From the NCBI GenBank assembly GCA_902812335.1, contig CADDZL010000007.1, positions 1-34,229 on the forward strand: 34,229 nucleotides of DNA. The letters run 5' to 3'. The translations under genes and the position numbers were made by a program. Source of the DNA: Chloroflexota bacterium. GTDB lineage: Bacteria > Chloroflexota > Anaerolineae > DSLN01. A model generated the notes under the pieces. It ran no database searches. It saw only the letters and a list, made by a program, of their open reading frames with translations, and had not been told where the DNA came from. This document shows, piece after piece, positions 2,736 through 28,941 of this stretch (within the stretch, counting starts at the first letter, position 1; every line of letters starts with the position of its first letter).

Positions 2736-2768
2736 CTATCAGAGGAATCCGGCGGAGCAGGTTGGCTG

Positions 2769-3568: not shown

Positions 3569-3570
3569 CG

Positions 3571-4710: not shown

Positions 4711-4716
4711 GCGGGT

Positions 4717-4757: not shown

Positions 4758-4848
4758 GAGTCAATACATGGCCCAGCTTTAGCGCGATCTGAGCAAGCGG
4801 GCCGAGCAACAGAGGATCAGCCTGATCAGTGATGACTAAAGGAAACAT

Positions 4849-5217: not shown

Positions 5218-5256
5218 GGGGGGGCGTAGGCGATAAGCCGAGCGGAGGTGAACACC

Positions 5257-5463: not shown

Positions 5464-5482
5464 TTGAGTGAGTGGAGCTACT

Positions 5483-5752: not shown

Positions 5753-5760
5753 GGAGCGAT

Positions 5761-6835: not shown

Positions 6836-6848
6836 GCCGGGGCCAGGA

Positions 6849-7139: not shown

Positions 7140-7157
7140 CAGCGCTGGTGAATTACG

Positions 7158-7711: not shown

Positions 7712-7755
7712 CGCGAATTGGGTAACACATAGCTGGACAAGGAGGTGCGGTAGCC

Positions 7756-9753: not shown

Positions 9754-9762
9754 AAGGCAGTA

Positions 9763-11428: not shown

Positions 11429-11442
11429 GATGAGGTGCTCCG

Positions 11443-11994: not shown

Positions 11995-12006
11995 GGGAGA
12001 GATGAC

Positions 12007-13263
12007 ATGGAGGAAGACGTGAGTTCGAGCATCGTTGAGACCGCCTATGCGAAGGCGCGGCAGATATTGAGCAGCGAATGCAGCCCCATCGGGCTGATGG
12101 CGTCGCCGGAGGGCTACCCGCACGTCTGGGCGCGTGACAGTGTTATTACCGCTCTGGGGGCCGCGCTTCTGAGCGAGCACGCCAGTTGCCTGCGCGTCTC
12201 GCTCGCCACTCTGGCCGGCCAGCAATCCGAGTTGGGTGCCATTCCCAATAACGTCAGCGTGGCGACGGGGCGGCTGGATCACACCAATGCCGGTTCGGTA
12301 GACTCGAATCTGTGGTATATCCTGGGCCATTACCTCCAGTATAAGATTTTTGGCGACGCGGACTTCCTGCGGGCGTCCTGGCCGTCGCTGGAGCGGGCGC
12401 TGTTGTGGTTACGCTACCAGGACTCGAATGGCTGCGGCCTCTTGGAGGTCCATGAGGCCGCCGATTGGGCCGATCTGCTCGCCAACCGCTACAACATCCT
12501 GTATGACAATGTGCTGTGGTATGCGGCGTTGCGGGCGATGGGAGCGCTGGCGTCAGCCGTCGGTGCCGATGGGGCGCGCTACCGCGACATGGCTGCCGAT
12601 GTGCGCCATAAGCTGCGCATCGTGCTCTGGGTTGGGCCGGAGAACCAGGACGAGTGGGGGCCAAGCTGCCCGGGACACACCGAGTGGAAGCACACGCTGA
12701 GCCAGGTGGACCCGGTGCTGGTCAAGCGCCCCTTCTTCCTGCCCTACGTCGCCTTCCGTGACTACGGCGATTACTGCGACGTGTTCGGCAACCTGCTTGC
12801 CATCCTGTTCGGCGTCGCCAACCCTGCTCAAGAGAAGCGTATCCTGGATTATCTCCATCAGGTGGGTATTGCCGAGCCGTATCCGGTGCGGGTTCTCCAC
12901 CCGGTCATCCTGCCGGGCAGCAAGGATTGGCGTGAATACTACCGCAACAACAACCTGAACCTGCCGGACCAGTATCACAACGGCGGCATCTGGCCCTTTG
13001 TCGGCGGCTTCTACGTCGCGGCGCTGGTCAAGGCAGGGCGGTTGGACGAGGCTCGACACCAATTGGAGAAGCTGGCCGAGGTAAACAGGTTGGGTATTGA
13101 TGGCGAGTGGGAGTTCAACGAGTGGTGCCATGGCCGGACCGGGCGGCCCATGGGTTACCCGCATCAGGCCTGGTCGGCGGGGATGTACGTGTTCGCATAC
13201 CATTGCGTTGCTGAAGGGCGAGTGCCGCTATTGGACCTGGCTCAGCAGCCGGTGGCTGTATAG
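12007..13263 (+). CDS. Six-hairpin (alpha/alpha)6 glycosidase, amylo-1,6-glucosidase/invertase-like
   Basis: A 418-residue protein without signal peptide. Diagnostic pieces are YPHVWARDSVITALGA near residue 40 (the W-x-R-D motif of glycogen-debranching and neutral-invertase-like catalytic domains), DSNLWYILGHYLQY, HEAADWADLL, NNLNLPDQYHNGGIWPFVGGFYV and the C-terminal EWCHGRTGRPMGYPHQAWSAGM. These fit the barrel of GDE_C-type glucosidases or GH100-like invertases; the exact substrate (glycogen branch, sucrose-like sugar) cannot be told. The ATG is preceded by GGGAGAG. It starts 12 nt after the Fe-S protein gene, so it is at the tail of the CODH-block transcript although its function is in sugar metabolism. 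Confidence 0.8.
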   Translation: MEEDVSSSIVETAYAKARQILSSECSPIGLMASPEGYPHVWARDSVITALGAALLSEHASCLRVSLATLAGQQSELGAIPNNVSVATGRLDHTNAGSVDSNLWYILGHYLQYKIFGDADFLRASWPSLERALLWLRYQDSNGCGLLEVHEAADWADLLANRYNILYDNVLWYAALRAMGALASAVGADGARYRDMAADVRHKLRIVLWVGPENQDEWGPSCPGHTEWKHTLSQVDPVLVKRPFFLPYVAFRDYGDYCDVFGNLLAILFGVANPAQEKRILDYLHQVGIAEPYPVRVLHPVILPGSKDWREYYRNNNLNLPDQYHNGGIWPFVGGFYVAALVKAGRLDEARHQLEKLAEVNRLGIDGEWEFNEWCHGRTGRPMGYPHQAWSAGMYVFAYHCVAEGRVPLLDLAQQPVAV

Positions 13264-15452: not shown

Positions 15453-16415
15453 TCACATTGGCGACATGCTCGCCATCACGTCGCGTATGATGTCATCCAA
15501 TCCCAACGCCGGCTGCCAGCCGACCGTTGCCTGGACCTTACTCGTGTCCGGCACCCGTCGCCGCGTATCCTCATAGCCCGGCCCATAGGCCTGATCGTAC
15601 GGCACGTACACGATCTCCGAACGGCTGCCCGTAAGCGCCCTGATCCGCCCGGCCAGGGCGGCGATGGTGACCTCCTCGCGGCTACCGACGTTGAACACCT
15701 GCCCGATTGCGGCTGGGGCCTCGGCCAGCAGGCGGATGGCGCGCACGACATCGCGCACATGGCAGAAGCAGCGCGACTGTTGACCATCGCCATACACTGT
15801 GAGCGGCTCACCCCGCAATGCCTGCCCGACCAAACGCGGCACGACCATGCCATAGCGCCCGGTCTGGCGCGGGCCGACGGTGTTGAATAAGCGGACGATC
15901 ACGGCCGGCAAGCCCATCTCCTGATGATAGGCCAGTGCCAGGAACTCGTCCAGCGCCTTCGACTCGGCATAGGCCCACCGGCTGCGAGTGGTCGGGCCGA
16001 GCAGGCGGTCGTCGTCCTCGCGGTAAGGGACGCGGTCGCTCTTGCCATAGACCTCGGAGGAGGATGCCAGCAGCACCTTGACGCCGTGCCGGGCTGCCAC
16101 CTGTAGAACCGTATGTGTGCCCATGACGTTGGTCTCGATCACGCGCAGCGGTGAGCGCACTACCAACTGAACGCCCACTGCTGCCGCCAGATGGAAAACG
16201 ATATCGCTGGATGCGACCAATGGCTCCAGCGCCGCCGCATGTGTCACATTGCCCTGGACGAAGGTGAAGTCCTCCCGTCCGGCCAGCGTCGCCAGGTTCT
16301 CAGCCCGCCCGGTCGAGAGGTCATCCAGGACCGTGACGACATGCCCGGCCCCCACCAGCGCCTCGGCCAGATGGCTGCCGATGAAACCGGCACCCCCGGT
16401 AATCAGAGCTCGCAT
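15453..16415 (-). CDS. NAD-dependent nucleotide-sugar epimerase/dehydratase
   Basis: A 320-residue extended short-chain dehydrogenase. The Rossmann motif TGGAGFIGSH is at residues 6-15, the acidic NAD-ribose residue pair DD at 31-32, the catalytic Ser near 119 (LASSSEVYG), and Y149-x3-K153 (YAESK). The substrate-side segment RLFNTVGPRQTGRYGMVVP and the QSRCFCHVRDVVRAI segment resemble UDP-glucose 4-epimerase or UDP-glucuronate decarboxylase relatives. The gene starts directly after the stop of the C25 peptidase gene (no spacing), as last gene of the surface-protein operon. It likely supplies a nucleotide sugar for glycosylation, perhaps used with the membrane glycosyltransferase at 23529-25148; that pairing is inference. 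Confidence 0.9.
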   Translation of the reverse strand: MRALITGGAGFIGSHLAEALVGAGHVVTVLDDLSTGRAENLATLAGREDFTFVQGNVTHAAALEPLVASSDIVFHLAAAVGVQLVVRSPLRVIETNVMGTHTVLQVAARHGVKVLLASSSEVYGKSDRVPYREDDDRLLGPTTRSRWAYAESKALDEFLALAYHQEMGLPAVIVRLFNTVGPRQTGRYGMVVPRLVGQALRGEPLTVYGDGQQSRCFCHVRDVVRAIRLLAEAPAAIGQVFNVGSREEVTIAALAGRIRALTGSRSEIVYVPYDQAYGPGYEDTRRRVPDTSKVQATVGWQPALGLDDIIRDVMASMSPM

Positions 16416-18593
16416 CTATTTCCTAAACCTCAGCGCCGGATCGCCCAGCAGGTTAAATGTCTCGATCACCTCGAGCGGTATAGCAGCATTGGACGACAGG
16501 CCGGCCTGGGCGCGTTCGAGCGCCTCGCCCAGTGTGGATATTTTGGGATCGAACAGAGCTGCATAGAACGCCTGAGCCAGCGGCGCTTGCTGTGCAGCCA
16601 GCGAGCGGCCGCTGGGCACGACCGCACCGACAATGCCGCCGTCCTTCAGCCAGAGTAGCACCTCTGCCAGCGAATCGGCCTGGGGATGCTGGAAGAAGCC
16701 GTTGAGACAGGTGTAGGTGGTCAGGATCGGCAGACGGTCCCCATTTTTCAGATCGCCGGCATTCTTCACCGTCAGCGCCTGCTCGTCGCCCCACACGTCC
16801 AGACTGCCGTGACCGATGTAGTTGACGATGGACACACCGTGATTGAAAGACGCTACGATAGCCTGGTGTAGCTTCTGGCTCCTATCCTTCTGATCCAACG
16901 TCGTGCTGAAGTATATGCGTTCAGCCGAGTAGCCTGGTGGCAGGGCAGCAATGAGTTGCTCATTCAGGCTCTCGAAAGCCGGGTCTTCATCGTCGGCTAC
17001 AGCCAGCATCCGCGTCCTCCAGTCGGCGGCCGGGGCCTGTTCGTAGGCGATGATCTTGCCGACCATCATCGCCACCTGCTCCGGCGTCTGAGCCGGCAGG
17101 CGGCCAATGGCAAACAGGGGCCTGCCCTGATCGTCCTCAGCGTACCAGGTGTCGCTGGCCGTCTCGCCAGCAAACTGGGTGTAGACCAGGGAGGTGGGTA
17201 CGATGTCGCGGTTCTTACCCCGCAGGACGTTGCGATAATCGTAAGAGGCATCTCCCACCAGCAGGACGAAGCGCGGCGGAGGCTGCCAGCGGGAGTGCAC
17301 ATCGCGCAGGAAGTCGCGGATCGCCGCCGGGTCCTTCATGCCGTAGCTATAGGCATCGTAGATGTCTGCCGGGTCCACTGTGCGCACGCGCAGGCCGTTT
17401 TTCGCACGCCAGTCCAGCAGGGGCTGAATTGCCTGGCTGAACGCTGCCGGGACGATGGCCAGGTAATCGGCCCCACCGGTCTCCTGTTTCAGAGTCGGCA
17501 GGCGGGCTGGGGTGACCGATGCCGGGCGGCGGAACGCCGATGCGCCGACGACCAGATAGTGGTGCGGTTTATCGCCTATACTGCCGAACGTGATCTCGTC
17601 GCCCGCTGTCACCGCACCGGTGAGCCGGACAGGTTGGGCCGGGTCAGTAATATCGAGCAGCAGAGTATCGTCCCCGAAGCCCTTCAGGTGAAAGGCGGTA
17701 GCGGTGCCGGTGAAGGCCAACAGGCCATCGTTCGTGCTCAGCCAGTGTGGGTAATCGAGCTGGATCCAGTTCAGGAAGACCTGGTCCACTGGCGCGCCCG
17801 TGTCGCCGGGCGCGTTAATGACCAGTGTATTGGCCCCATCATGCAGCACACCCGCTGGGATCGTGGCCGTGATCAGGTGCGCCATCATGCCGTCCCAGCG
17901 GTCGTCGGCCAGCGGGCGGTCGTTCAGGCTGATATTGACGTGGTGGTCCGGGCTGGTCGGGGCATTCGTCCCCGACCAGAGCGCGACGACGAGCGTGGCC
18001 TCCTCGCCCGCTGCCAGCAGCGGCAGGTTCAGGGTTCGGGTGAGCGTGCCGGGGCCATACAGAGCTTCCCAGAGCCAGTGGTCCTCGTTCGGTAGCGGTT
18101 CGGGGTGATAGATGCGGTCTTCTTCCAGCCGCAACCGTGCCATTCCGGCCTCCACCGGCACGCCCTGGGGTGCTGCGGCGCGCTCAGCCATATACCTCGC
18201 GCTGCCCTGGGCGGAGGTGGTCAGCCAGTAGATATTGGCGGCGCTGTATGCACTGGGATTGCCCTGCCCGTAGAAGATCAGCGCCCGGTCACGGCCCACG
18301 CCGGCCAGGTAGAAGGGCACGTTGCGGCTGCGCAGGGTTAACCGCAACCTGTCGGGATCGGCACCGGCCAGGTTAAAGCCGGCCGCGCCTAATAGGGCTG
18401 CGTCGAGGCGGTATACCCCATCGGCCTCCACGGCGACCTTCACTGCGTCGGTGGCTGAGCCACCGATCAGAGGTCCAGCCACCGATAGCGTTCCTCTGGC
18501 GGGGCCAGTGCGCGTACGGCTGGCCGCCAGCGCGGCCAGGCCGCCTAGCACTCCGACAAGCAGCAGGGCGAGTAGAAAAGGGCGACGGCTCAT
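16416..18593 (-). CDS. Gingipain-type (C25) cysteine peptidase, secreted
   Basis: A 725-residue protein with an N-terminal signal peptide or anchor (residues 5-25, FLLALLLVGVLGGLAALAA), a beta-rich region (about 40-380) and a C25 catalytic domain (about 385-725). The catalytic dyad is visible: H595 in YIGHGS and C629 in TYTCLNGFF, 34 residues apart, as in gingipains. The LLVGDASYDYRN and IGRLPAQTPEQ segments are further C25 landmarks, and the protein ends LLGDPALRFRK. C25 enzymes cleave exported or surface proteins. No Por-type C-terminal secretion domain is evident. The start overlaps the stop of the Thr/Pro-rich gene (ATGA at 18590-18593). Paralogous to the larger peptidase at 20356-23502. 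Confidence 0.9.
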   Translation of the reverse strand: MSRRPFLLALLLVGVLGGLAALAASRTRTGPARGTLSVAGPLIGGSATDAVKVAVEADGVYRLDAALLGAAGFNLAGADPDRLRLTLRSRNVPFYLAGVGRDRALIFYGQGNPSAYSAANIYWLTTSAQGSARYMAERAAAPQGVPVEAGMARLRLEEDRIYHPEPLPNEDHWLWEALYGPGTLTRTLNLPLLAAGEEATLVVALWSGTNAPTSPDHHVNISLNDRPLADDRWDGMMAHLITATIPAGVLHDGANTLVINAPGDTGAPVDQVFLNWIQLDYPHWLSTNDGLLAFTGTATAFHLKGFGDDTLLLDITDPAQPVRLTGAVTAGDEITFGSIGDKPHHYLVVGASAFRRPASVTPARLPTLKQETGGADYLAIVPAAFSQAIQPLLDWRAKNGLRVRTVDPADIYDAYSYGMKDPAAIRDFLRDVHSRWQPPPRFVLLVGDASYDYRNVLRGKNRDIVPTSLVYTQFAGETASDTWYAEDDQGRPLFAIGRLPAQTPEQVAMMVGKIIAYEQAPAADWRTRMLAVADDEDPAFESLNEQLIAALPPGYSAERIYFSTTLDQKDRSQKLHQAIVASFNHGVSIVNYIGHGSLDVWGDEQALTVKNAGDLKNGDRLPILTTYTCLNGFFQHPQADSLAEVLLWLKDGGIVGAVVPSGRSLAAQQAPLAQAFYAALFDPKISTLGEALERAQAGLSSNAAIPLEVIETFNLLGDPALRFRK

Positions 18594-19801
18594 TCAGATG
18601 ATCCAGGGCGACGCCAGTCGTGCGCTTCGGTATCGGCGGCATTGGGTTCGGCTGGCGGATGCGCACTCTCCCCGGCCGACATGGGAGGTGAGGGCAACGT
18701 GGGCTCCGACCAGCGCCAGAAAACGTAACCGAGGCCGCACAGGCCACACAGCCCAACCAGAGCCAAAGCGACCAAAATCAGTCCTGTGCGGCGGCTCTCA
18801 GTTCGGGTCACGTTATCCGCCGTGTTGGGTACGGCACCCTGCTGGCCCTGATTCAGCGGCAGTTTGGCTGCCACCAGGGCGGTGGCCGTGGCCTTCGCCC
18901 CGGCAGGTGGAGCCATCCGCTCAGGTATGGTGAAGGTGGCTGGACTTAGAGATGGGCCAGGGGCGGTGACCGTTGGCATCATGAGCGGAGTTGCAGGTGC
19001 ATCCTGCTGCTGCGAGCTTTCGGGCGTGGATGCCGGGGCGGTCGGCTTGGCAGTCGCCGGGCCAGTTGCTGGGATGACGGCAGTCGGCGGGTGCGTCGCC
19101 GTGGGCGGGGGTGATGCGACCGGGGCAGCCGTATGCGTAGCGCCCGGCAGCGCTGTGGGGCCAACCGTAGTCGTCGTCGAAGGGAGGGTCGGCGTGCTTG
19201 CCGATGGCGGGGCAGGCGTGTCATTGGCGGCATCTGGTGGTTGGGTTGCCGCTTGTGTCGCAGTGACCTCGGCCGGAGCTGTCGGTAATATCGGTGCATC
19301 GGTGGGAATCAGTGTCATGGCGGGTGGGGGTGTATCTGTAGACGTCGGCACCGGTTGAGCGCCGGGCACCAACGGGTTGTTCTCATTCTCAAGGTACGAT
19401 GGGGGGTCCTGGGTGTCCAGCCATTCCAGCCGGTACCAGTAAGCTGTGCCGTTGACCACGCTGGTGTCGGTGAACCAGTAGGTTGAGCCGATTGGCTGGC
19501 CAGGGTTCTGTGGGGGGACTGGGTAGGCGTTGAGCTTAACGCCGGGTGTCGCACCGGGGAGGGGGGTTGCCGCTACGTCCCTGCGCCACACGTTGACGCC
19601 GGCCAGTGTCAACTCGTTGCCGGTCGCCCAGGTCAGGTAGACGATGCTATCGCCGACGGTGCCTTGAAAGTATAGCAGGCTGACCGAGGCGATAGCCTGA
19701 CGGACCAGCGCCAGCGCCACCAGCCAAACCGCCAGCGCAATCAGCCAACGGATGCACCGACGGTCATGCGTTTCGGGATTCTCAGCCCCATCACGTCGCA
19801 T
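18590..19801 (-). CDS. Membrane-anchored protein with FnIII-like domain and Thr/Pro-rich stalk
   Basis: A 403-residue protein. An N-terminal hydrophobic segment (about 18-38) is followed by a beta-sandwich domain (about 40-130) with the pattern YLTWATGNELTLAGVNVWRR and YWFTDTSVVNGTAYWYRLEW, an FnIII-like fold common in Chloroflexota secreted proteins. Next comes a roughly 180-residue low-complexity stalk of Thr, Pro, Ala and Ser, a likely target for O-glycosylation, then a second membrane segment (about 340-360) and an acidic/polar cytoplasmic tail. Topology resembles a wall-spanning display or anchor protein. A TAGGA site precedes the ATG. The domain is related to that of the lipoprotein at 27624-27983. 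Precise role unknown. Confidence 0.75.
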   Translation of the reverse strand: MRRDGAENPETHDRRCIRWLIALAVWLVALALVRQAIASVSLLYFQGTVGDSIVYLTWATGNELTLAGVNVWRRDVAATPLPGATPGVKLNAYPVPPQNPGQPIGSTYWFTDTSVVNGTAYWYRLEWLDTQDPPSYLENENNPLVPGAQPVPTSTDTPPPAMTLIPTDAPILPTAPAEVTATQAATQPPDAANDTPAPPSASTPTLPSTTTTVGPTALPGATHTAAPVASPPPTATHPPTAVIPATGPATAKPTAPASTPESSQQQDAPATPLMMPTVTAPGPSLSPATFTIPERMAPPAGAKATATALVAAKLPLNQGQQGAVPNTADNVTRTESRRTGLILVALALVGLCGLCGLGYVFWRWSEPTLPSPPMSAGESAHPPAEPNAADTEAHDWRRPGSSE

Positions 19802-19811
19802 AACGGCGGTC

Positions 19812-20348
19812 CTATGTCACCATGCGAGATACCAGCCGCGCCAGTGCCCGGAAGGGCATGCGCGCCAGCCAGCCCAACTTCGGTGTGCGCCTGCCCAGGA
19901 GGCTATGCGCTGCACCCCGCAGCGTAGCGTACGTGGCTGCCTCCAGCCGGGCCAGTGCGCCTTGCAGCTTGATGGCCCGGTGCCCCTTGCCCTGTGTGAG
20001 ATCCAGCGTCTGTCCGCTACGAACCACTGCCACGGCTCGCCCAATCACTGACTCTGCGGGCCAAGGCGGATCGGGCATGTCGCTGCGGTCGCCCCGCGTC
20101 ACCAGCCATGCCACATCTCCCTGGTGCCGAAGAGCGACTAGGCGGTGCACGACGAATGGCCTGCCGGGCGCAACCGCTACGACCAGGTCGCCGGGACGCA
20201 AAGCTTTAGCTGCCACGGCCGTGACCACGACCTCGTCGCCAGGCTGGATCAGCGGGGCCATGCTGCCGCTGACCACGCGGAAGCGCAAGCTCGCCCCAAG
20301 CGCGGCCCGTTCACGCACCAGGCTGACAATGCTCGCGTCGCGTTCCAT
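19812..20348 (-). CDS. Signal-peptidase-like S24/S26 (S26B-type) protein
   Basis: A 178-residue protein with the S26 box I VVSGSMAPLIQPGDEVVV (candidate nucleophile S29) and, instead of the bacterial lysine, the box HRLV (H68) after DLVVAVAPGRPFVV, as in archaeal/SipW-type S26B signal peptidases, then VTRGDRSDMPD. A typical N-terminal membrane anchor is missing; the C-terminal third is a basic amphipathic region. It may process secreted products of this operon, but loss of the anchor makes activity uncertain. The longest frame uses a TTG at 20366; ATG 20348 is preferred. It overlaps the end of the large C25 peptidase gene only if the TTG is used. Confidence 0.78.
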   Translation of the reverse strand: MERDASIVSLVRERAALGASLRFRVVSGSMAPLIQPGDEVVVTAVAAKALRPGDLVVAVAPGRPFVVHRLVALRHQGDVAWLVTRGDRSDMPDPPWPAESVIGRAVAVVRSGQTLDLTQGKGHRAIKLQGALARLEAATYATLRGAAHSLLGRRTPKLGWLARMPFRALARLVSRMVT

Positions 20349-20355
20349 AGGCTGG

Positions 20356-23300
20356 CTAGGGTCCAAACATCATTTGCACCCGCGTTGCCGGGTCGCCCAA
20401 CACGGTGAACGTATCAATCAACTCCAGATAAGCGGAGGTGTTGGCCGCCAGATAAGCCTTGCCCGCGTCGGCCAGGCTGCCCACCTGCGGCATGGGAGGG
20501 TCTCCGAACAGCGCATTGTAGAATCCCGTATTCAGATAAGTGTGACCTGTGTCCACTTCAAGGCCGGTGGGGGCGAACGATGCGACCGAGCCGCCGCCTT
20601 GCTTGCGGAGCATGGTCTCGTCAACCGACTGGAAATTCGACTGCGGTAGGACGAAGTAGCCTTCGAGGCAGGTCATCGGCAGCATCACCGGCAGACGGTC
20701 GCCGTTGGCTAATGTCGCAACCGAGTTCAGGTCGAGGAGCCCCTCGGCGGCCCAGTATTGTACCGCGCCATGGCCATAGTAGTTGACGAAGACGCGGCCC
20801 AGGTTGATCTCGCTGATCAATGTCGTCGAAACCTGCTGTGGCGTGCTATACCGTGGTGTCATTCCATAACAGCCGTTGGGATGGGACGGATCGCTGTCCG
20901 GGTCAAAATAGACGCGGTCCAGCGGCTGCTGTGGCTGATAGGCCAGAATGTCTGTGATGATCTGATCACTCGAAGCGAAGAAGTTGGCAGCCGGGTCCTG
21001 ATTGCAGTTGTATTGTGGAGGCCAGTTGCCCAGGCCATTGTCGGAAACGAACACCATCTGGTGGTGCCAGGTGGCCGGCGGATTAGCCTCGTAGTTCACA
21101 ATCTTATTGACCATCACCGATACGTCCGATGATGTGTTCGCTGGTAGCCGCCCGATGTGCATGAAGGGCAGCGCCGATTCCAGATAACTGGCGGGGTTAC
21201 TGACGTAGCGGTTATCGGCCGGCGCTTCGCCCTCCCAGGGGTCAATGTTGACCAGGTAAGGCGGCATGGGGTTAGGCGTGTTCAGGCCCAGATAGTTCTT
21301 GAAGTCGTAATGGCCGTCGCCTACGAGCAGAACGTAGCTGGGCGCCGGCGGGGTCCAATTCTGGTAGGCGTACCACAGGAAATCGTGGATAGCCTGTGGG
21401 TTGACCTGGCCGTCGCTGAACTCGTCGTACACATCCTGCAAGTCCACGACCGTGACGGCCATCCCTTGCGACTGGCGCAAGTTGATCAGGGGCGTGAGTA
21501 CGCCGCCTGCGCTCAGCGAGGCCGGCGCGATAACAATGTAGTCGGCGCGGTTTGTTGTCGCATGCAGGCTCGATGGTGAATCCAGCGTGATCCCCGGCAT
21601 CCCACACTGTGCCGCCGTTTGGATGGTGTAAGTCACCGGGCCGGTTGTCGTTGTCTGAAAGTCGAAGGTGGCATCCGGGCCCTGGCTCACCGGTGCATTG
21701 CCTGGGCCCTGGCCGCTGCTGCGCAGGGCGGCCGGCAGATAGAGCATCTGCGCACAAGGCGCGACGGTTGCGGTCGTGCTGATGTACTTGGGAAGGGGCG
21801 GGTTGGTGACATCAAAGGCTGAAAGGTAGCTGCTGCTGAGGCCGCTGACCTGGTAATGCTGGGTCCCGCCGGGATAGCCGAACGTCAATTGGTCATTCTG
21901 GGCCACGAAGCCACGCCGGTAAGTCACCTCAAACCAGTCGGCGACCACAGTGTATAGCGGTGTTGTGGTCGGGAATACCTCAATCTTGATGATATTCGGA
22001 CCGTTGATCAGCCAGTTTGCATCAAGTGGGAACTGGCCGGTCCACTGGCCGTAGCCACTCCAGTTGGCCGACTCGGCGACCAGGTTGCCGTTGAAGTAGA
22101 CCTTGGCGTCGTACTGCCAGGTGCTTCCCCCACCCCATAGCGAGAACCTGAGCATCGGTGTGTAGTTTCCCGCTGCCAGATTGCTCAGTGTGACGGTATA
22201 GGTGCGCGTAGGCGGTATATGGCTGGGGTCATAACCGTAGCCGATCAGGTTCCAGAACCAATGATCGTGGGTTGAGTAGGGCGGCTGGCCGCTATCGCGC
22301 GGAGGGATGTAGCTGTAATAGACAAGGTTCTGCTCCAGATGCACCGTCGTTGTGTAGTAAGCCGGGATTGTCGCGCCCGCTGGTGTGGCATTGACCACCT
22401 GCATCCGCAATGGGTTTGTCGCATCCCACCCCAGCCAGTAGATGTTGGTGTCGGTGAAGCGGGTGGTGGCTTTTCTTCCGTAGAACACCAACTTCTCGCC
22501 CGGCTGAAAGACGGTGTCGCCATTGCCCTGCTCCAGCAGCGCGACCGGGGCCCCGGCGTTGCACAGCGTGAAGGTGTGCGGGTTAATCGTGTCCATTGGA
22601 ACGCCTGCTGCCTTGAGCGCTTCATAGCTGAGCTGATAGACCCCATCGCGGTTCACAGCGACCTTGTACACCGGTGAGTTGTCGAAAGCCGGCCACAGGC
22701 AAGAGGGCAACGTCGGCATTGCTGGTCCCTGGGCCTGCGTGCGCCAGGGCCGTGCCGACTCGTAATTGAGCAATGTTGCTCGCAGAAAGCGTTCATAATC
22801 AGCGCTCTCCGGGCGCGCTTCTAGCACCGGCCGGCCGTTCGGGTAGGTGAAGGTAAGCTGCACGACCAGCCGATGGTAGACGCGTGCCTGACCCCGTGCC
22901 GGGTTGTATTGCACCGGCCGGATTGTCACCTGAACAATACGCTGATCGCGTAGCCAGGAGGCGGGCATAGCCGCTACAGGCGCCTCCGGCGTGAAAGCAT
23001 CGCGGGTATAAGCGGCCGCGTCCGGGACGGTTTCCGTGGTATAGTCCAGCGGCCCGCCCGTCAGGGACGGCTGGATATGGATAGATTGCACCGGCAGGAC
23101 CTGCGCCAGGCTCTGCTCGCTACTATCGGCTTCGAGCAGGCTTAGCGTTACTTCAGCGCCCGGCGGCACGCCCAGTGTGAAGCCCCGCAACGGTAAAGCG
23201 GGCTCACCAGGCGCACCCGTCAGGCCATAGCCGGCGATGGCCAGCCTCTGGTAAGTTTCACCGGCAACCATCATGGGCTGGATGATCAACGGTGGCACGG

Positions 23301-23502
23301 CCACTTCGAAAATGATGGCGTCCTCATCCGAGCGGATCAGGCGTGCCCCTCCCATCGGAGGCGCTAATAGCGGTGCTGGCGTCGCGGCCGGCTCAGGTGA
23401 GGGGGGCGGTACATGCGCCCGCACGGCGGTGAATCCACCCGGCATCAGGCTCAAAATCGCCAGGTAGATGAAAAGCCCGATCAGAATCCTACGATGTCTC
23501 AT
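20356..23502 (-). CDS. Large gingipain-type (C25) cysteine peptidase, secreted
   Basis: A 1048-residue secreted protein. The signal peptide (about residues 5-28) ends near AVRAHV. Residues 30-240 resemble a gingipain propeptide (QRLAIAGYGLTGAPGEPALPL is spread over this part). A central beta-rich region follows, with the C25 domain at about 690-1048. The dyad is H911 in YYGHGA and C945 in MTCLEGYF, 34 residues apart. LLVGDGHYDFKNYLG and HIGRLPANTSSDV match the same landmarks as in the smaller peptidase. It ends TVLGDPATRVQMMFGP. The frame is open to a TTG at 23532, overlapping the glycosyltransferase gene by 4 nt, but ATG 23502 with GGAAGGA just upstream is used. Substrate unknown. Confidence 0.9.
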   Translation of the reverse strand: MRHRRILIGLFIYLAILSLMPGGFTAVRAHVPPPSPEPAATPAPLLAPPMGGARLIRSDEDAIIFEVAVPPLIIQPMMVAGETYQRLAIAGYGLTGAPGEPALPLRGFTLGVPPGAEVTLSLLEADSSEQSLAQVLPVQSIHIQPSLTGGPLDYTTETVPDAAAYTRDAFTPEAPVAAMPASWLRDQRIVQVTIRPVQYNPARGQARVYHRLVVQLTFTYPNGRPVLEARPESADYERFLRATLLNYESARPWRTQAQGPAMPTLPSCLWPAFDNSPVYKVAVNRDGVYQLSYEALKAAGVPMDTINPHTFTLCNAGAPVALLEQGNGDTVFQPGEKLVFYGRKATTRFTDTNIYWLGWDATNPLRMQVVNATPAGATIPAYYTTTVHLEQNLVYYSYIPPRDSGQPPYSTHDHWFWNLIGYGYDPSHIPPTRTYTVTLSNLAAGNYTPMLRFSLWGGGSTWQYDAKVYFNGNLVAESANWSGYGQWTGQFPLDANWLINGPNIIKIEVFPTTTPLYTVVADWFEVTYRRGFVAQNDQLTFGYPGGTQHYQVSGLSSSYLSAFDVTNPPLPKYISTTATVAPCAQMLYLPAALRSSGQGPGNAPVSQGPDATFDFQTTTTGPVTYTIQTAAQCGMPGITLDSPSSLHATTNRADYIVIAPASLSAGGVLTPLINLRQSQGMAVTVVDLQDVYDEFSDGQVNPQAIHDFLWYAYQNWTPPAPSYVLLVGDGHYDFKNYLGLNTPNPMPPYLVNIDPWEGEAPADNRYVSNPASYLESALPFMHIGRLPANTSSDVSVMVNKIVNYEANPPATWHHQMVFVSDNGLGNWPPQYNCNQDPAANFFASSDQIITDILAYQPQQPLDRVYFDPDSDPSHPNGCYGMTPRYSTPQQVSTTLISEINLGRVFVNYYGHGAVQYWAAEGLLDLNSVATLANGDRLPVMLPMTCLEGYFVLPQSNFQSVDETMLRKQGGGSVASFAPTGLEVDTGHTYLNTGFYNALFGDPPMPQVGSLADAGKAYLAANTSAYLELIDTFTVLGDPATRVQMMFGP

Positions 23503-23528
23503 ATCCTTCCCCGACGTCTGATAGCTGG

Positions 23529-25148
23529 TCAATGACTACTGTCCTGTTGCCGCCCCAGTGCATCCAGCCGGGCCTGCACATAGGCCGCAATGTCGGCATA
23601 GGGCACGTAAGCGCCCCCCCCGACGCTGCGTGAATCGAAGCCGGTAGCGGGCACAAGGGCCAGCCCCGCTTCATAATCGGCAGCGGCGCGGTCGCGGTCG
23701 CCCGTAAGCTCATAAGCCAGCCCGCGGCTCAGCTTATCTATCGCATTTGGCTTGACCTGCGCTTCGAGTCGGTCGAACCCTTGAGCCGCCCACCGGAAGT
23801 CGGCCTCCCCCCAAGGCCGCTCGCGGGCGCGTAAGGCCTCGGTCGCCGGACAGCCCATAATACCGCCCCAAGTCCAGCGGCGCAAGGCGCTGATCAGGTC
23901 GTTCCGGATCAGAGCTTGCTGGCCGACATTGAAAGCGCCGAGCCCAATCAGGGCAATGGCCAGAAGAGCCGTGGTCAGTGGCCGGTGATCAGTAGCCGGT
24001 CCACTGATCGTAGGCAAACGATCGTTAACTACTGCTTTCACCAGGCAGGCCAGCAGCAGAAGGTAGCCGATGCTTGCCAGATACAGATAGCGGCCGCGGA
24101 ATGGGGCCAGGAACGAGGCAGCAAGCGTCACCGGCGCGAGTGCCACTACGACCCAGGCCGTCAGAAACCAGCCCTCGCGCCGTCCCCAGCGCCATACGAT
24201 CAGCCCCCATAGCACGGCGATGGCACCTGCGGCAGCGACGACGGCCCGTAGACGCATCGTGTTGAGCGTGTTGTACGGGATGAACGGATCCACCAGGAAT
24301 ATCACAGCCTTGCCCAGGTTTTCCACCGAACGCAGCGCCAACAGGTCATAGCTCTCTGCACCGGGTCGCTGCCTGTAAGCAATACCCACCAAAGCGGTAT
24401 ACACGCAGGTGAGCAGGAAGAAGGGGAGGTATCTGAGCGCGATGCGGAATCGGTCATGCTCCTTGGGGGCAGCTTCGTCGTGGGACACCCACTCCAATAT
24501 CGGGAACAGGAACGCGATGGTGATGCTGCTCTCTTTCGACATCAGGGCCAGTGCGAAGGCAGCCAGGGCCAGGACGTAGTATCGAAAGGCATGAGGGCGG
24601 GCCATTCGGGCTATATCCAGATAACGCCAGAAGAAGAGCAGACTGGCTAGAGTGAAGGTCACCAGAAGTACCCCCGCCAGGTCCGCGATCCACAGCACGG
24701 CCCAGCGGTGGACCGGATAAATGAGCCAGGTGAGCGCCCCGACCAGCGCCAGCCGGCCGTTGCGGGTCAATCGCTGAACGAAAGCATAGGCCAGCAGGCT
24801 GTTGACGATGTGCAGCGCCAGGCCCACTGTACGGTACGCGGCCGGCTCGCAGCCGCATAGCGGCACGAGTGCGCCGAAGGTGAGGGAGGCCAGCGGGCGA
24901 TAAGGGAATTGGCTGTTGGGCAAAAAGGCCGCTGGCAGAAGCGCGGCGGGTGAGATATGGCGCGCAGCGTTAATCCAGGTGAGATCGTCGAGCCAGAAGA
25001 AATCACCCAACATCGGCCCAAATACGGCCAGGCCCAGGAGTAACAGAGCCACAGCCACCAAGACCCATTTGACCCAGGCCTCCCTCAGCCCGGGTAAGAC
25101 ATGGGTGCCGCGGCCGCCCTCCGCTCCACCCTGAGCTGTCGCATTCAA
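23529..25148 (-). CDS. Membrane glycosyltransferase of the PMT/TMTC type with C-terminal TPR
   Basis: A 539-residue protein with about ten membrane segments. The first periplasmic loop carries FFWLDDLTWI with the DD pair expected for a GT-C glycosyltransferase, then FPYRPLASLTFG. Later landmarks are YPVHRWAVLWIADLAGVLL and ALALMSKESSITIAFLFP, the pattern of TMTC-like protein O-mannosyltransferases. About 120 C-terminal residues are soluble and include a tetratricopeptide-like unit (KLSRGLAYELTGDRDRAAADYE). It probably transfers a sugar from a lipid carrier to exported proteins; the Thr/Pro-rich protein at 18590 would be a suitable acceptor (inference). The only in-frame start near the N-terminus is TTG 25148 with no clear ribosome-binding site, so the start is uncertain. 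Confidence 0.82.
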   Translation of the reverse strand: MNATAQGGAEGGRGTHVLPGLREAWVKWVLVAVALLLLGLAVFGPMLGDFFWLDDLTWINAARHISPAALLPAAFLPNSQFPYRPLASLTFGALVPLCGCEPAAYRTVGLALHIVNSLLAYAFVQRLTRNGRLALVGALTWLIYPVHRWAVLWIADLAGVLLVTFTLASLLFFWRYLDIARMARPHAFRYYVLALAAFALALMSKESSITIAFLFPILEWVSHDEAAPKEHDRFRIALRYLPFFLLTCVYTALVGIAYRQRPGAESYDLLALRSVENLGKAVIFLVDPFIPYNTLNTMRLRAVVAAAGAIAVLWGLIVWRWGRREGWFLTAWVVVALAPVTLAASFLAPFRGRYLYLASIGYLLLLACLVKAVVNDRLPTISGPATDHRPLTTALLAIALIGLGAFNVGQQALIRNDLISALRRWTWGGIMGCPATEALRARERPWGEADFRWAAQGFDRLEAQVKPNAIDKLSRGLAYELTGDRDRAAADYEAGLALVPATGFDSRSVGGGAYVPYADIAAYVQARLDALGRQQDSSH

Positions 25149-25182
25149 GGCACGGTTAGCGTTGCTTTCCTAATAGATAACC

Positions 25183-25211
25183 AAAAGGAGGGGGTCGGCA
25201 ACCTACACCCC
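25183..25211 (-). terminator. Possible terminator after the small peptide gene
   Basis: Read on the - strand, GGGGT and ACCCC pair around an 11-nt loop and are followed by CCTCCTTTT. A second small stem (CGGTG-CTG-CACCG, 25238-25250) precedes it. The stem is short, so some transcripts may read on into the glycosyltransferase and peptidase genes. Confidence 0.35.
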
Positions 25212-25261
25212 GCCCCCCTGCGCAGGCCGAGGTGGCACGGTGCTGCACCGGAAACATCGTC

Positions 25262-25438
25262 CTAGCTATTGATGACAGTGCAGTCTGCGCCCGCCTTGCC
25301 GTTTATCGGGTCGGACTGTTGGCAGACCCCAGCAATGGCCTCGAGCACCTGCCGGTGAACGATCTGCGGCTTCTCGTAGGTCTTCTTCTTCCTTCGCTTC
25401 ACTTGCCGCTTCACTTGCCTCTCCACCTGTTTCTCCAT
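25262..25438 (-). CDS. Candidate RiPP precursor peptide (58 residues)
   Basis: A 58-residue gene, short enough to be lost in ORF calls. Start ATG 25438 overlaps the stop of the radical SAM gene by one base (TGATG), and AAAGGAG lies about 8 nt upstream. Both are strong signs of a real coupled gene. The first 19 residues are Lys/Arg/Gln/Val-rich with a repeated QVKR unit. Then comes KKTYEKPQIV, a YxxPx-hydrophobic motif like those that bind RRE domains in lasso and other RiPP leaders. A hydrophobic stretch VLEAIAGVC follows, and a polar C-terminus with C39 and C53 (VCQQSDPINGKAGADCTVINS spans the putative core). Likely substrate of the maturase; the modification is unknown. It ends at TAG 25262. 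Confidence 0.72.
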   Translation of the reverse strand: MEKQVERQVKRQVKRRKKKTYEKPQIVHRQVLEAIAGVCQQSDPINGKAGADCTVINS

Positions 25439-26505
25439 CACTTCGCTCCTTTCCCCCTGAGAGCTTGTCGGCGCAGCCGCGCTTCGCGATAGGCGACACT
25501 TGAACAGCCCAGCATGTCGCCATCCTCAAATGCCGCGTTGCCGTGACAGCGGACACAGTACTGGCGTAGTTCGCACGTTGAACAGACCGGCAGGTTACCC
25601 AGGGTCAGGCCGGACAGTTCCTGCCAGACCGGCGACTCGCGCCAGATGGCTACCAGGGGCTGCTCACGCACATTCCCGGCCGACACGCGTGCCCCTACGC
25701 ACGAGAACACTTCGCCATAGGGTCCAATAGTCAGGCTCGTCAGCCCAATTCCACAAAAGCGGTAATCCTCACGGTAAGGGGTCAGGTGCCACGAGCCCGG
25801 ATCTATCTCGCGCCGGAAGACTTCCAGCAACTGGTTGTCGTTCATGCGATGCTTAAGCGGCGAACGGTCGCCTGTATGTTTGGGTACAATAGTGAGATCA
25901 TACTGCCAGCCAGCGCCGATCTCAGTGGCTAGCGCGCGCATCGCCTCCATCTGGTCCCAATTCTCGCGCGTGATCGGCGTCTTGAGTATGACCTTGACGC
26001 CGCGCTGCCTGAGCAGCCGGGCCGCGCGAATGGTGAGATCGAACGAACCCGGCAGGGTGGTGATGTCGTCGTGCGTCGCGGCGTCTGCTCCATAGATGCT
26101 CAGCTCAACCGCCACCGGGTGAAGCGCTGCGATCTGGTCGGCCACTTCTGGCTTGATCAGGATGCCGTTAGTATAGAGCCGGATGGCGAAGCCGCGTTTG
26201 CGGGCATAGGCGGCGATTTCGAAGAAATCGCGTCGGACCAGGCTCTCCCCCCCAGAGAAGGTGATCGTCAGCGCGCCCAATTCCGCCAGTTCGTCAATGA
26301 CGCGCTTGGCTTCCGCGGTGGTCAACTCCCCCGGGAGCCGAGCGCCGGGGGGCAGAACATCCAGGTAGCAATGAGTACACTTCTCATTGCAGCGGTAGGT
26401 AAGCTCCCAATGAACGCCGATGAGCCGATGTTGCTGCTGTGACCTCAGCAGCATCGCCTTGTAGCGGTCGCTCGACTCATTGGTGACGGCACAAGGTTCG
26501 GTCAT
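25438..26505 (-). CDS. Radical SAM/SPASM peptide maturase
   Basis: A 355-residue radical SAM enzyme. The SAM-cluster motif is C39NEKC43THC46, with GGES at about 84-87. The C-terminal SPASM region has cysteines at about 250, 268, 307, 310, 316, 319 and 333, enough for two auxiliary [4Fe-4S] clusters. Close relatives are maturases that install thioether or carbon-carbon links in ribosomal peptides (PqqE, sactipeptide and related enzymes). The start overlaps the PqqD-like stop (ATGA at 26502-26505), and the small peptide gene starts on its own stop. The pairing with a separate RRE protein and a short peptide makes a RiPP maturase the best call; an anaerobic sulfatase-type activator is less likely since no sulfatase is nearby. 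Confidence 0.9.
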   Translation of the reverse strand: MTEPCAVTNESSDRYKAMLLRSQQQHRLIGVHWELTYRCNEKCTHCYLDVLPPGARLPGELTTAEAKRVIDELAELGALTITFSGGESLVRRDFFEIAAYARKRGFAIRLYTNGILIKPEVADQIAALHPVAVELSIYGADAATHDDITTLPGSFDLTIRAARLLRQRGVKVILKTPITRENWDQMEAMRALATEIGAGWQYDLTIVPKHTGDRSPLKHRMNDNQLLEVFRREIDPGSWHLTPYREDYRFCGIGLTSLTIGPYGEVFSCVGARVSAGNVREQPLVAIWRESPVWQELSGLTLGNLPVCSTCELRQYCVRCHGNAAFEDGDMLGCSSVAYREARLRRQALRGKGAK

Positions 26506-26801
26506 CCGTTGTCCGTCCCGGGTTGGTCATGCAGGATCAGCACCCGCTGGTCCACGAGTTGCCGGACGAAAGCGTCCACATCGTCCAGGGCCTGGGCGAG
26601 GTCAACTTCGTACTCATCCGTCAGGACGGCGGCGATTGCCGCCAGGCTATGCTGCCCGTCAGCCAATGCGAAGATGCGCGAGCCGACCTCATTCAATACC
26701 TGGATCTCGTTGGTTTCGGCCAGAAGCAGAATGGCCTCACCATCTATAACACGACCGGCCGTCTGAGGATGCGGCTTCGGATAAAGATTACGTGGGTCCA
26801 T
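26502..26801 (-). CDS. PqqD-like RRE (leader-binding) protein
   Basis: A 99-residue protein with the PqqD winged-helix pattern: a beta wing (RVIDGEAILLLAETNEIQVLN), then EVGSRIFALADGQHSLAAIA and the helical end DVDAFVRQLVDQRVLIL. Free-standing PqqD-like proteins bind the leader of a precursor peptide and present it to the radical SAM enzyme. ATG 26801 is chosen for GGAG 8 nt upstream; the longest frame starts further up at 26825. It overlaps the HPr-kinase-like gene by 14 nt and the radical SAM gene by 4 nt. This tight coupling suggests fixed stoichiometry with the maturase. Confidence 0.88.
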   Translation of the reverse strand: MDPRNLYPKPHPQTAGRVIDGEAILLLAETNEIQVLNEVGSRIFALADGQHSLAAIAAVLTDEYEVDLAQALDDVDAFVRQLVDQRVLILHDQPGTDNG

Positions 26802-27609
26802 GAATAACGCTCCAGAAACCGTCATCGCGCCGGAAGTGGAGGGCGCGCACCGGCACGGCTGCCGTGAGAGCGCTACACACCTCCAGCAGTGCGGCTGCTG
26901 ACGCCCGGTCGGCGACGACGAATGGCGCGGCTGCTGCCAGTTCGGCTACCCCTTCGGCCGGGCTAAGCGGTGCAACGGCGTGACGTTGGTCCTTGCGCAA
27001 CCGATAGATACCAGCCAGGGGGGCCTGGGCATTCGCCCTCGGTGCTGCGACGAGTTCGCCGCGGAATGGCACGCCGAAGAGAGTATAGCGGTCGTCCACG
27101 TAGCGAATGATCACCAGGTCATCACTCAAAACCTGGGCCATGCCCTCGGACAGGCGGGCCGTCGTGGTTTTGCCCGCGCCCGAAGGGCCGAAGAACACAT
27201 ACCCTTGCCCATCGCGGATCAGGCCGGCGGCGTGCAAGAGCAGTCCCCCTCGTTGGAGACACAACCAGGCGTACACGACGCGCAGGAAGTTCTCCAGATT
27301 GCCCTCTGGTGCCATGATAACGTGCCCCTGTGCGCTGCCAAAGTCGGCCTCGCCTGCCTCAAGATACGATCTGAACTTGATCCGGCCAGCATCATAAGCC
27401 AGGTTGATGATCCAGGGCCCAGGCTGGATAGGGACAAACCGGGCTCCTTTTCGCACCTGGACCTTCAGCCTCAAGGCCGCTTCATCTCTCCCTTCGCCAA
27501 GAAAGGCGGCGTAGTGGTGATGGATCCGCTCCGCCATCGAGCTATCGTTCACCAGCAGGTGTACCGGTATGCCGGCGATGGTGATAGGGATCAGAGGATA
27601 CAATGCCAT
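26788..27609 (-). CDS. HPr-kinase-like P-loop protein of a peptide-modification cassette
   Basis: A 273-residue protein. The N-terminal 110 residues have no named domain. The C-terminal part starts GGLLLHAAGLIRDGQGYVF and contains the P-loop GPSGAGKTT (about 141-149), then LSDDLVII as a Walker-B-like site, as in HPr kinase/phosphorylase-related proteins. Such HprK-like proteins are recurrent partners of PqqD and radical SAM proteins in RiPP-type cassettes, for example the ScmC component of the SynChlorMet cassette described for Chloroflexi, Synergistetes and methanogens. Its substrate is unknown; it may phosphorylate a peptide or protein, or only bind nucleotide. ATG 27609 is used; a TTG at 27627 overlapping the lipoprotein stop is the alternative. 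Confidence 0.82.
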   Translation of the reverse strand: MALYPLIPITIAGIPVHLLVNDSSMAERIHHHYAAFLGEGRDEAALRLKVQVRKGARFVPIQPGPWIINLAYDAGRIKFRSYLEAGEADFGSAQGHVIMAPEGNLENFLRVVYAWLCLQRGGLLLHAAGLIRDGQGYVFFGPSGAGKTTTARLSEGMAQVLSDDLVIIRYVDDRYTLFGVPFRGELVAAPRANAQAPLAGIYRLRKDQRHAVAPLSPAEGVAELAAAAPFVVADRASAAALLEVCSALTAAVPVRALHFRRDDGFWSVIHGPT

Positions 27610-27623
27610 GTGTTCGGCGCGTG

Positions 27624-27983
27624 TCAACGAATTGGCGCGCTGGCTTGCCCGGCAACAACCTTGATCGGCCCATGCATCTCCCTCACACCAGTCGTGTCCA
27701 GGTCTTCGAGCTTATAGTAGTAGGTGTGACCGGCGACGACCTGGGTATCGGTGTACACATAGTCCCCCCCTAGGGCCGGATCGTCCTTCGCCGGGATCAG
27801 GGTTGCGTTGATCTTGACGTAGGGTCCATCCTCGCTCTCGGCCCGGTAGAGATTGAAGCCGGCAGTGTTGTACTCGCTCTTCGTTGTCCAACGAATGGTC
27901 ACCACCGGATTAGGAGAGCCACAAGCCACGAGGAGAACCAGAGCCAGTGCGCCTGGTATGAGAGCGAGATGCCGCCGCCGCAT
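27624..27983 (-). CDS. Small lipoprotein with FnIII-like domain
   Basis: A 119-residue protein with a lipoprotein signal peptide: basic start MRRRHL, hydrophobic core, lipobox LVAC with C21. The mature part is one beta-sandwich domain with IRWTTKSEYNTAGFNLYRAE and YVYTDTQVVAGHTYYYKLEDLD. It resembles the domain in the Thr/Pro-rich protein at 18590-19801. It should sit on the outside of the cytoplasmic membrane. It lies 11 nt after the DsbA-like gene and just before the HPr-kinase-like gene, inside the peptide operon. A role in binding the exported peptide or a cell-surface partner is possible but not shown. Confidence 0.82.
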   Translation of the reverse strand: MRRRHLALIPGALALVLLVACGSPNPVVTIRWTTKSEYNTAGFNLYRAESEDGPYVKINATLIPAKDDPALGGDYVYTDTQVVAGHTYYYKLEDLDTTGVREMHGPIKVVAGQASAPIR

Positions 27984-27994
27984 GGGTCACGCGT

Positions 27995-28879
27995 CTATCC
28001 GCCCCCTCCAACCTCGTTAATTGCCGACCGGAAGGCTTCAAACGGCTGGGCCCCGACCAGAGCCTGGCCGTTAATGAAGAATGTCGGCGTGCCGCTCACG
28101 TGCAGCCGGTTGCCCTCTTGGACATCGGCCTCCACGCTGGCTTGATACTTGTGTGAGTCCACACAGTCATTGAAGCGCCGTGTATCCAGGCCAAGCTGCT
28201 GGGCGTAGCGTTTGAGATCCGGGATAGTCAGTGCCTGTTGGTTGGCAAAGAGGACGTCATGATATTCCCAGAATTTGCCCTGTTCATGGGCACACTGGGC
28301 GGCCTCAGCCGCCTGCCGCGCGTACGGGTGGATGCTGTCGAGCGGGAAGTCGCGGAACACGAAACGCACCCGGTCGCCGTAAGCTTGTTTGAGTTGTGCC
28401 AGGGTGTTATCCTTGAACATCTTGCAGTAGGGGCACTGGAAGTCAGAGAACTCGACGATGGTCACTTTGGCGTTGGGGGGGCCAAACGAAGGATCGGCCA
28501 GGCCGGCGTCCGATGGCCCGGCGATGGCGCTTCCCACCCCACCTGCTCCAGGAGCAGGCAGGACGAATCGGCCGATCAACAGACCCAGGGTGAAGAAGAC
28601 GATAGCGATCAGGATGCCGCCAATGAGCGTGCTGCGGCGGATGACGATGACGTCGGGTCCCTCCATCAAGGCGGGGTTGAGACGCCGCTTCGCCACACGC
28701 CGCACCCCCGTTCCCTCCGCTGTCAGAGGAGCAACAGGAGGTGGGGATATTGCTTCCGCTGGCTCACCAGCCACGTCCGCGAGCGGCGGCGATGGCACAG
28801 CCATTTCAACTGGGGTCCCTGGCCAAGGTTCGGGCGAATTCTCATTGCCCTCAACGACGCGCGTCTGTTTATATTCCAT
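27995..28879 (-). CDS. Membrane-anchored DsbA-type thiol-disulfide oxidoreductase
   Basis: A 294-residue protein. An 80-residue cytoplasmic N-terminal part is rich in Pro, Glu and Ala. One membrane segment lies at about 84-107, and the outer domain (about 130-290) has the thioredoxin fold of the DsbA/Thioredoxin_4 family. The active site is C149-P-Y-C152 (FSDFQCPYCKMF), the cis-proline loop is SGTPTFFING and VRFVFRDFPLD is a further family motif. It probably makes or isomerises disulfides outside the membrane. It is the first gene after the strong promoter of the peptide operon, and the candidate peptide has two core cysteines, so it may act on that peptide (inference). AGGAG lies about 9 nt before the ATG. 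Confidence 0.88.
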   Translation of the reverse strand: MEYKQTRVVEGNENSPEPWPGTPVEMAVPSPPLADVAGEPAEAISPPPVAPLTAEGTGVRRVAKRRLNPALMEGPDVIVIRRSTLIGGILIAIVFFTLGLLIGRFVLPAPGAGGVGSAIAGPSDAGLADPSFGPPNAKVTIVEFSDFQCPYCKMFKDNTLAQLKQAYGDRVRFVFRDFPLDSIHPYARQAAEAAQCAHEQGKFWEYHDVLFANQQALTIPDLKRYAQQLGLDTRRFNDCVDSHKYQASVEADVQEGNRLHVSGTPTFFINGQALVGAQPFEAFRSAINEVGGGG

Positions 28880-28890
28880 CGCTAGGATCT

Positions 28891-28910
28891 CCTGTGGGGT
28901 GCGCCACAGG
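28891..28910. promoter_or_regulatory. Perfect palindrome over the start site of the peptide operon
   Basis: CCTGTGG-N6-CCACAGG is a perfect 7+7 inverted repeat. It lies directly downstream of the -10 box and covers the predicted transcription start, and one arm overlaps the AGGAG ribosome-binding site of the DsbA-like gene. It could be the operator of a dimeric repressor or, in RNA, a small stem hiding the ribosome-binding site. Confidence 0.5.
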
Positions 28911-28912
28911 GG

Positions 28913-28941
28913 ATTCTAGCCCGGATCGGAGCGTGTGTCAA
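28913..28941 (-). promoter_or_regulatory. Near-consensus sigma-70 promoter of the peptide operon
   Basis: Read on the - strand: a perfect -35 TTGACA (28941-28936), a 17-nt spacer and -10 TAGAAT (28918-28913). The predicted start of transcription is near 28906, 27 nt before the ATG of the DsbA-like gene. This is the best promoter match I found in the window. Confidence 0.7.

Follow-up and report, generated by a model that had tools for sequence, protein, structure and literature searches.

A probable radical SAM-bearing relative of phosphorylated RiPP pathways, linked to C25 peptidases, in Chloroflexota

Serine phosphorylation of ribosomally synthesised and post-translationally modified peptides (RiPPs) has been shown in two families that employ an HprK-like kinase together with a RiPP recognition element (RRE) (PMC9266682, PMC13381572). 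In the linear polyphosphorylated peptides (LPP), from the Bacillota, Ser3 of the core is phosphorylated, and the leader is removed by the archaeal-type signal peptidase I (SpI) LppS, which needs S29/H68/D93 as well as the RRE and cuts after T-1, with a Tyr at -16 (Popov et al. 2026, PMC13381572); the text of that study mentions neither radical S-adenosylmethionine (SAM) enzymes nor C25 peptidases nor Chloroflexota. In lasso precursors the C-terminal Ser is phosphorylated by PadeK, ThcoK and PsmK, which carry a His-Lys-Asp-Asp motif (PMC9266682). The subject of this analysis is a gene cassette in a 34,229-nucleotide stretch of DNA from a Chloroflexota bacterium of the class Anaerolineae (GenBank assembly GCA_902812335.1, contig CADDZL010000007.1, positions 1 to 34,229; hereafter the window). 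The cassette is probably a RiPP system, namely a radical SAM-bearing relative of the phosphorylated RiPPs (LPP and the paeninodin-type lasso peptides).

Comparison of the cassette with described systems

The cassette shares with LPP a discrete RRE (PF05402), an HprK-like kinase with its catalytic residues, an archaeal-type signal-peptidase homologue with equal Ser-His-Asp spacing, and a YxxPx[IV] leader with a small residue at Tyr+15 (positions are counted from the Tyr of this motif), where the Ala of the cassette falls at the register of Thr(-1) in LppA. Unlike LPP, it adds a radical SAM/SPASM enzyme, two C25 peptidases and FnIII-like proteins, and it is found in the Chloroflexota and not the Bacillota. 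The features held in common with the paeninodin-type lasso systems are an HprK-like kinase with the His-Lys-Asp residues, a terminal Ser, a PqqD-like B1 protein and a [Y/W]xxP leader; by contrast, the run of genes contains no B2 leader peptidase or macrolactam cyclase, and a radical SAM enzyme is present.

A preliminary description of the window had likened the HprK-like protein to ScmC of the SynChlorMet cassette (ScmA-F), in which radical SAM/SPASM, PqqD-like and HprK-like proteins also occur together. The cassette has one radical SAM enzyme, not two, and in addition encodes C25 peptidases and the signal-peptidase homologue. Scores against the SynChlorMet models lie far below the cut-offs (ScmC 38/125, ScmD 27/100, ScmF 99/400 and ScmE 93/400), and SynChlorMet membership was rejected on these NCBIfam scores. 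Based on sequence comparisons, the phosphorylated RiPPs, which the preliminary description did not name, appear to be the closer precedent. Its assignment of the genes to a RiPP pathway, from the discrete RRE, the SPASM maturase and the YxxP leader, is supported.

Six genes had been described as a compact operon. All six open reading frames (ORFs) are present on the - strand, but they make up no more than the first half of a co-directional run of ~12.5 kb (window 16416-28879, - strand), which goes on to 16416 and includes two C25 peptidase genes and a signal-peptidase homologue that had passed unmentioned. The DsbA and FnIII genes are separated by 11 nt and the remaining junctions of the six-gene part overlap; a spacer of 113 nt separates the peptide gene from that of a membrane protein, and the last five genes, from the membrane protein to the second C25 peptidase (C25b), overlap or lie ≤11 nt apart. 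Co-transcription of the run is inferred from this spacing. The features are as follows, with uncertain starts for several ORFs (HprK, C25).

28913..28941 (-), sigma-70-type promoter match ahead of the run, TTGACA-17-TAGAAT, 11/12 matches
27995..28879 (-), membrane-anchored DsbA-like thiol oxidoreductase (Pfam DSBA/Thioredoxin_4)
27624..27983 (-), FnIII-like lipoprotein with an LVAC lipobox, assigned from sequence and homologues
26788..27627 (-), HprK-like P-loop serine kinase, start TTG 27627 or ATG 27609
26502..26825 (-), PqqD-like RRE (PF05402, E 7.5e-15)
25438..26505 (-), radical SAM/SPASM maturase, CNEKCTHC (PF04055, E 7.5e-25, and PF13186)
25262..25438 (-), precursor peptide of 58 aa, leader ...YEKPQIVHRQVLEAIA, predicted core GVCQQSDPINGKAGADCTVINS
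23529..25148 (-), multi-pass membrane protein, no Pfam/NCBIfam match
20356..23532 (-), C25 (gingipain/PorU-like) peptidase with propeptide and N-terminal signal (PF01364, E 1.6e-78; PF08126)
19812..20366 (-), archaeal/ER-type signal-peptidase homologue, candidate leader peptidase (TIGR02228)
18590..19801 (-), FnIII-like repeat protein, no Pfam match, homologues in other loci
16416..18593 (-), second C25 peptidase (C25b), His595 and Cys629

The Pfam/NCBIfam searches confirmed the Radical_SAM and SPASM, PqqD and DsbA/Thioredoxin_4 assignments. For the strong promoter that had been placed ahead of the operon there is an 11/12 match, but ~3.4 chance matches are expected at the scan's lower threshold in the region scanned.

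Conservation of the gene set and precursor peptides

When genome contigs were scanned with the radical SAM protein, seven close relatives in the Chloroflexota came up, along with more distant ones, among them a locus of the Nitrospirota. Of 396 genomes of the class searched with a profile, 28 had matches, in two score bands; searches in the source's own family and order gained no further genomes. Locus maps were drawn with wide flanks, from genomes that are all drafts and many of which are metagenome bins (loci are numbered with the prefix L). The set HprK-PqqD-radical SAM-peptide-FnIII-C25-signal peptidase-C25 recurs in ~20 Anaerolineae loci and, for the most part, in one outside the class (L095, with HprK, PqqD, radical SAM, peptide, C25, signal peptidase and a second C25). 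The usual order, seen in most loci with enough contig, is HprK-PqqD-radical SAM-peptide followed by FnIII-C25-signal peptidase-FnIII-C25b; it is reshuffled in L065 and in L014, where it reads peptide-signal peptidase-HprK-PqqD-C25.

Not all of the run belongs to this set. DsbA had been described as built into the operon, but it is absent from every other locus mapped and was rejected as a member of the conserved unit; the multi-pass membrane protein likewise has no homologue at the other loci mapped and occurs only in this copy. The FnIII-like lipoprotein has relatives in most cassettes (37-65% identity) but no Pfam match, such that "FnIII" is a description by resemblance. Homologues of the FnIII-like repeat protein lie between the signal-peptidase and C25b genes in L010, L011, L013 and L015.

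The peptide gene had been listed with a GTG start at 25441. The ATG at 25438 is the better start, as it lies one base inside the stop codon of the radical SAM gene (TGATG) with AAAGGAG upstream, and gives a peptide of 58 aa. Homologues lie directly 3' of the radical SAM gene in 7/7 close Chloroflexota relatives (BLAST E 1e-9 to 1e-19), and 21 distinct precursors were found overall; on both counts the gene is not a chance ORF. Precursors were identified using an anchored scan, which replaced an all-frame YxxP scan that was too noisy.

In a tree of 50 radical SAM proteins, group I forms one supported clade (100/98), with the fragment L054 inside it. Four group I loci yielded no precursor: L065, where bases are masked, and L066, L069 and L070, which have contig edges or lack a clear ORF. 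The 21 group I precursors are invariant at Tyr+3 (Pro), +12 (Glu), +15 (Ala) and +18 (Cys), and the first motif position is Tyr in 20/21 and Trp in 1/21. A second Cys and a core Lys, usually as Gly-Lys, are present in all 21. The last residue is Ser in 20/21 and Thr in 1/21, despite a length of 17 to 30 residues from the first Cys to the end. Ser makes up 8.7% of the other group I core positions, and the nominal binomial P of 1e-19 (19/20) is overstated as the peptides are related. The L095 peptide, read after the C-terminal Ser had been noticed, also fits.

The other precursors keep parts of this pattern. Group II peptides, which accompany a more distant radical SAM protein, begin the motif with Trp, keep the Ala at +15 and contain an internal Ser and a Cys late in the sequence; their cores have a Lys in 1/7. 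Ala at +15 is thus present in 28/28 peptides of groups I and II. Group III peptides, which in L082 and L083 occur beside a B12-binding radical SAM enzyme, have Thr at +15, and group IV peptides have three Cys.

Enzymes, proposed pathway and alternative readings

The maturase has a radical SAM core and a SPASM domain and its gene adjoins that of the precursor. According to the preliminary description, the peptide pathway would be in doubt if related genomes kept the maturase without a peptide gene, or if the maturase grouped with non-peptide SPASM enzymes. Neither was observed: most relatives with enough contig keep a nearby peptide gene, and the solved structures closest to the maturase are those of PqqE, SkfB and a peptide maturase of the CteB type. 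The profiles of AhbD and NirJ2 (heme-type SPASM) score as high on the protein as MftC, all far below cut-off, and a heme-type SPASM kinship is compatible with the sequence alone. The two conserved Cys of the precursors are compatible with a Cys thioether to an alpha, beta or gamma carbon, as in sactipeptides and ranthipeptides.

The label HprK-like is upheld in that HprK-related models are the only matches, but all fall below cut-off. H132, K153 (Walker A) and D169 are invariant in 26 homologues. The AlphaFold2 model (pLDDT, the predicted local distance difference test, of 93.6) indicates an HprK/PEPCK-like fold, the best Foldseek matches being phosphoenolpyruvate carboxykinases and HPr kinase/phosphatases with modest TM-scores. 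No lasso kinase sequence was found among plasmids, and the likeness to the lasso and LPP kinases is one of described residues and fold.

No leader peptidase of the usual types had been recognised. The run does contain an archaeal-type signal-peptidase homologue (19812-20366), flanked by the two C25 peptidases, and because this protein belongs to the class shown to act as the LPP leader peptidase (PMC13381572), the earlier statement is not supported. It scores 59.2 bits with TIGR02228 (cut-off 51.85) and its nearest solved chain is SEC11; hydropathy revealed no strongly hydrophobic, hence no clear transmembrane, segment. Ser35 and His74 are conserved in 19/19 homologues and Asp99 in 17/19, with spacings of 39 and 25 residues that equal those of S29/H68/D93 in LppS.

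The larger C25 peptidase has catalytic His921 and Cys955 (ORF residues; His in 19/19 and Cys in 18/19 homologues), and the His595/Cys629 pair of C25b is kept in 13/13. Both proteins resemble PorU and the gingipains in the C25 domain (PF01364) with catalytic His and Cys, and the larger one also in its propeptide; the score with the model of the PorU sortase of the type IX secretion system (T9SS), NF033707, is 209.5 against a cut-off of 420, and, unlike PorU, the cassette is in the Chloroflexota and beside a RiPP pathway. The genome has two C25 genes only, both in this run. In a phylum-wide sample, 19 of the 30 places with HprK have a C25 gene no more than ~7.5 kb away, far more than chance (P 5e-22 at an assumed 3% chance with 1-9 C25 genes per genome, a P made too small by relatedness), and it is this linkage that is informative, not presence. 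Where C25 pairs were chosen for the lack of a group I or II radical SAM gene, HprK and PqqD are still alongside in five loci (L082-L086); several other C25-pair loci are short contigs, and L091 has C25b and the signal peptidase without HprK or PqqD. L100 and L105 have HprK, PqqD, radical SAM and signal-peptidase genes and no C25 nearby. The C25 block is therefore tied strongly, though not obligately, to the peptide core.

The proposed pathway builds on the observed gene content and linkage, on residues found to be conserved and on the matching register; RRE binding, the radical change, Ser phosphorylation and leader removal of the signal-peptidase type, like every other catalytic step, are inferred, these four from likeness to LPP and the paeninodin-type systems. 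The PqqD-like RRE would bind the leader at YEKPQI (YxxPx[IV]), and the radical SAM/SPASM enzyme would alter the core, in which two Cys and a Lys are retained, a Cys thioether being the likeliest guess. The HprK-like kinase would phosphorylate a serine, in group I most likely the C-terminal one. The signal-peptidase homologue, to which the RRE would present the substrate as LppB does to LppS, would cut after the invariant Ala at Tyr+15 and so release the predicted core GVCQQSDPINGKAGADCTVINS. After export, the two secreted C25 peptidases and the FnIII-like surface proteins may work with the product on the cell surface, where they would trim it or be its partners.

The acceptor residue, cut site and mature masses are predicted by the cassette and are thus directly testable. 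For the predicted core the calculated [M+H]+ is 2176.996 unmodified and 2256.962 with one phosphate; one thioether or crosslink (-2.016 Da) would bring these to 2174.980 and 2254.947. In the open PubMed Central literature no description was found of radical SAM chemistry and HprK-type phosphorylation on one peptide, and no report of a RiPP pathway tied to gingipain-like proteases, a link that the cassette makes. It also suggests a possible role for the HprK-like proteins of other radical SAM cassettes, such as ScmC of SynChlorMet, and would extend the signal-peptidase-type leader peptidase, recently described in Bacillota, to the Chloroflexota.

Several observations weigh against this reading. 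Group II peptides have no terminal Ser though the kinase is encoded at several of their loci, and only 4/10 group IV peptides have one, so the acceptor is not the C-terminal Ser throughout; a universal C-terminal Ser rule for HprK-linked peptides was accordingly rejected. The C-terminal Ser of group I could also persist on different grounds, such as being recognised by the maturase. Core position 3 (Tyr+18), a Ser in LppA, is Cys in 21/21 group I precursors, and the nucleoside triphosphate transferase and MsbA-like transporter of LPP are missing from the run's identified genes, while one membrane protein of the run has no family. For these two reasons the cassette is not filed as a member of LPP. 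The AlphaFold2 model of the radical SAM enzyme is poor (pLDDT 56) and gives no support. The signal-peptidase gene lies between the two C25 genes in most loci and may serve the C25 peptidases instead. C25 is found in 234/396 genomes of the class, so that its presence alone says little, and C25 on its own was rejected as a RiPP marker.

It is possible, if not favoured, that the locus is a surface-protein maturation cassette in which the C25 pair, the signal peptidase and the FnIII proteins are the main machinery (sortase-like, cf. PorU), with the modified peptide serving them as tag, inhibitor or signal and not being a secreted antibiotic-like product. Consistent with this, the two C25 proteins score 209 and 181 bits with PorU-type models, below the cut-offs, and C25-signal peptidase-FnIII-C25b is kept while the maturase and peptide are swapped, the maturase being a SPASM enzyme of group I, II or IV or a B12-binding radical SAM enzyme (L082 and L083, with a similar peptide in L085). 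By contrast, no T9SS C-terminal domain or other substrate tag turned up, although no search was aimed at one, and L100 and L105 show that the peptide pathway can stand without C25.

It is unlikely that the cassette makes a radical SAM RiPP (sactipeptide- or ranthipeptide-like, or Lys- or Cys-crosslinked) whose HprK-like protein is an accessory and not a peptide kinase, as it may be in the uncharacterised SynChlorMet/HprK_rel systems, with the terminal Ser as a recognition feature. The HprK-like protein does fall far short of all curated cut-offs, its best scores being with ScmC and HprK_rel_B, both uncharacterised, and the group II and IV peptides that occur with it lack a constant terminal Ser. 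The catalytic His, Lys and Asp are nevertheless invariant, and serine phosphorylation is established in the two families introduced above, which have this kinase with an RRE and, in LPP, also this peptidase.

That the C25 peptidases carry out the last step on the peptide itself, for instance a cut behind the conserved Lys of the core that leaves two chains held by the Cys pair, is doubtful: gingipains cleave after Arg or Lys and the Lys is universal in group I, usually as Gly-Lys, but group II cores mostly lack it though their loci carry C25, which weakens such cutting as a general step. Still more speculative, and improbable, is a general Chloroflexota chassis (RRE, HprK, signal peptidase, C25 pair and FnIII) with swapped radical chemistries, in which a sortase-like C25 peptidase would attach the phosphorylated product to surface proteins as a covalent decoration.

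Variant loci and neighbouring features

The B12-binding radical SAM genes (PF02310 and PF04055) are at 5135-6829 in L082 and 12479-14158 in L083, by HprK, PqqD and C25 genes. Peptides of the form KKTY[KQ]TPxLTKHQRLQKVTLGTV, which are similar to lasso leaders and to the leader motif of LPP, occur with these systems and in L085. Three-Cys peptides with the first Cys at Tyr+20 were found in L097, L100, L102, L103, L104, L108, L109 and L110, where they adjoin another radical SAM gene and HprK, usually with signal-peptidase and C25 genes; of those compared with NCBIfam peptide models, none fits. The Nitrospirota locus L016 (5856-12134) has two HprK/radical SAM/peptide sets and a signal-peptidase homologue, and of its peptides one is Gly-rich and ends in MMS and one has Cys.

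In the window, an inverted repeat (CCTGTGG...CCACAGG, 28889-28912, - strand) in the 5' untranslated region of DsbA overlaps the AGGAG ribosome-binding site, which suggests possible translational control. A nucleotide-sugar epimerase-like gene follows C25b both here (15453-16415) and in L065 (10441-11406). The + strand at 349-13263 carries an unrelated set that encodes FmdE-like, ABC ATPase and SufBD-core proteins, TauE, a NUBPL/ParA iron-sulfur carrier, a prismane-family protein and an ABC transporter ATPase.

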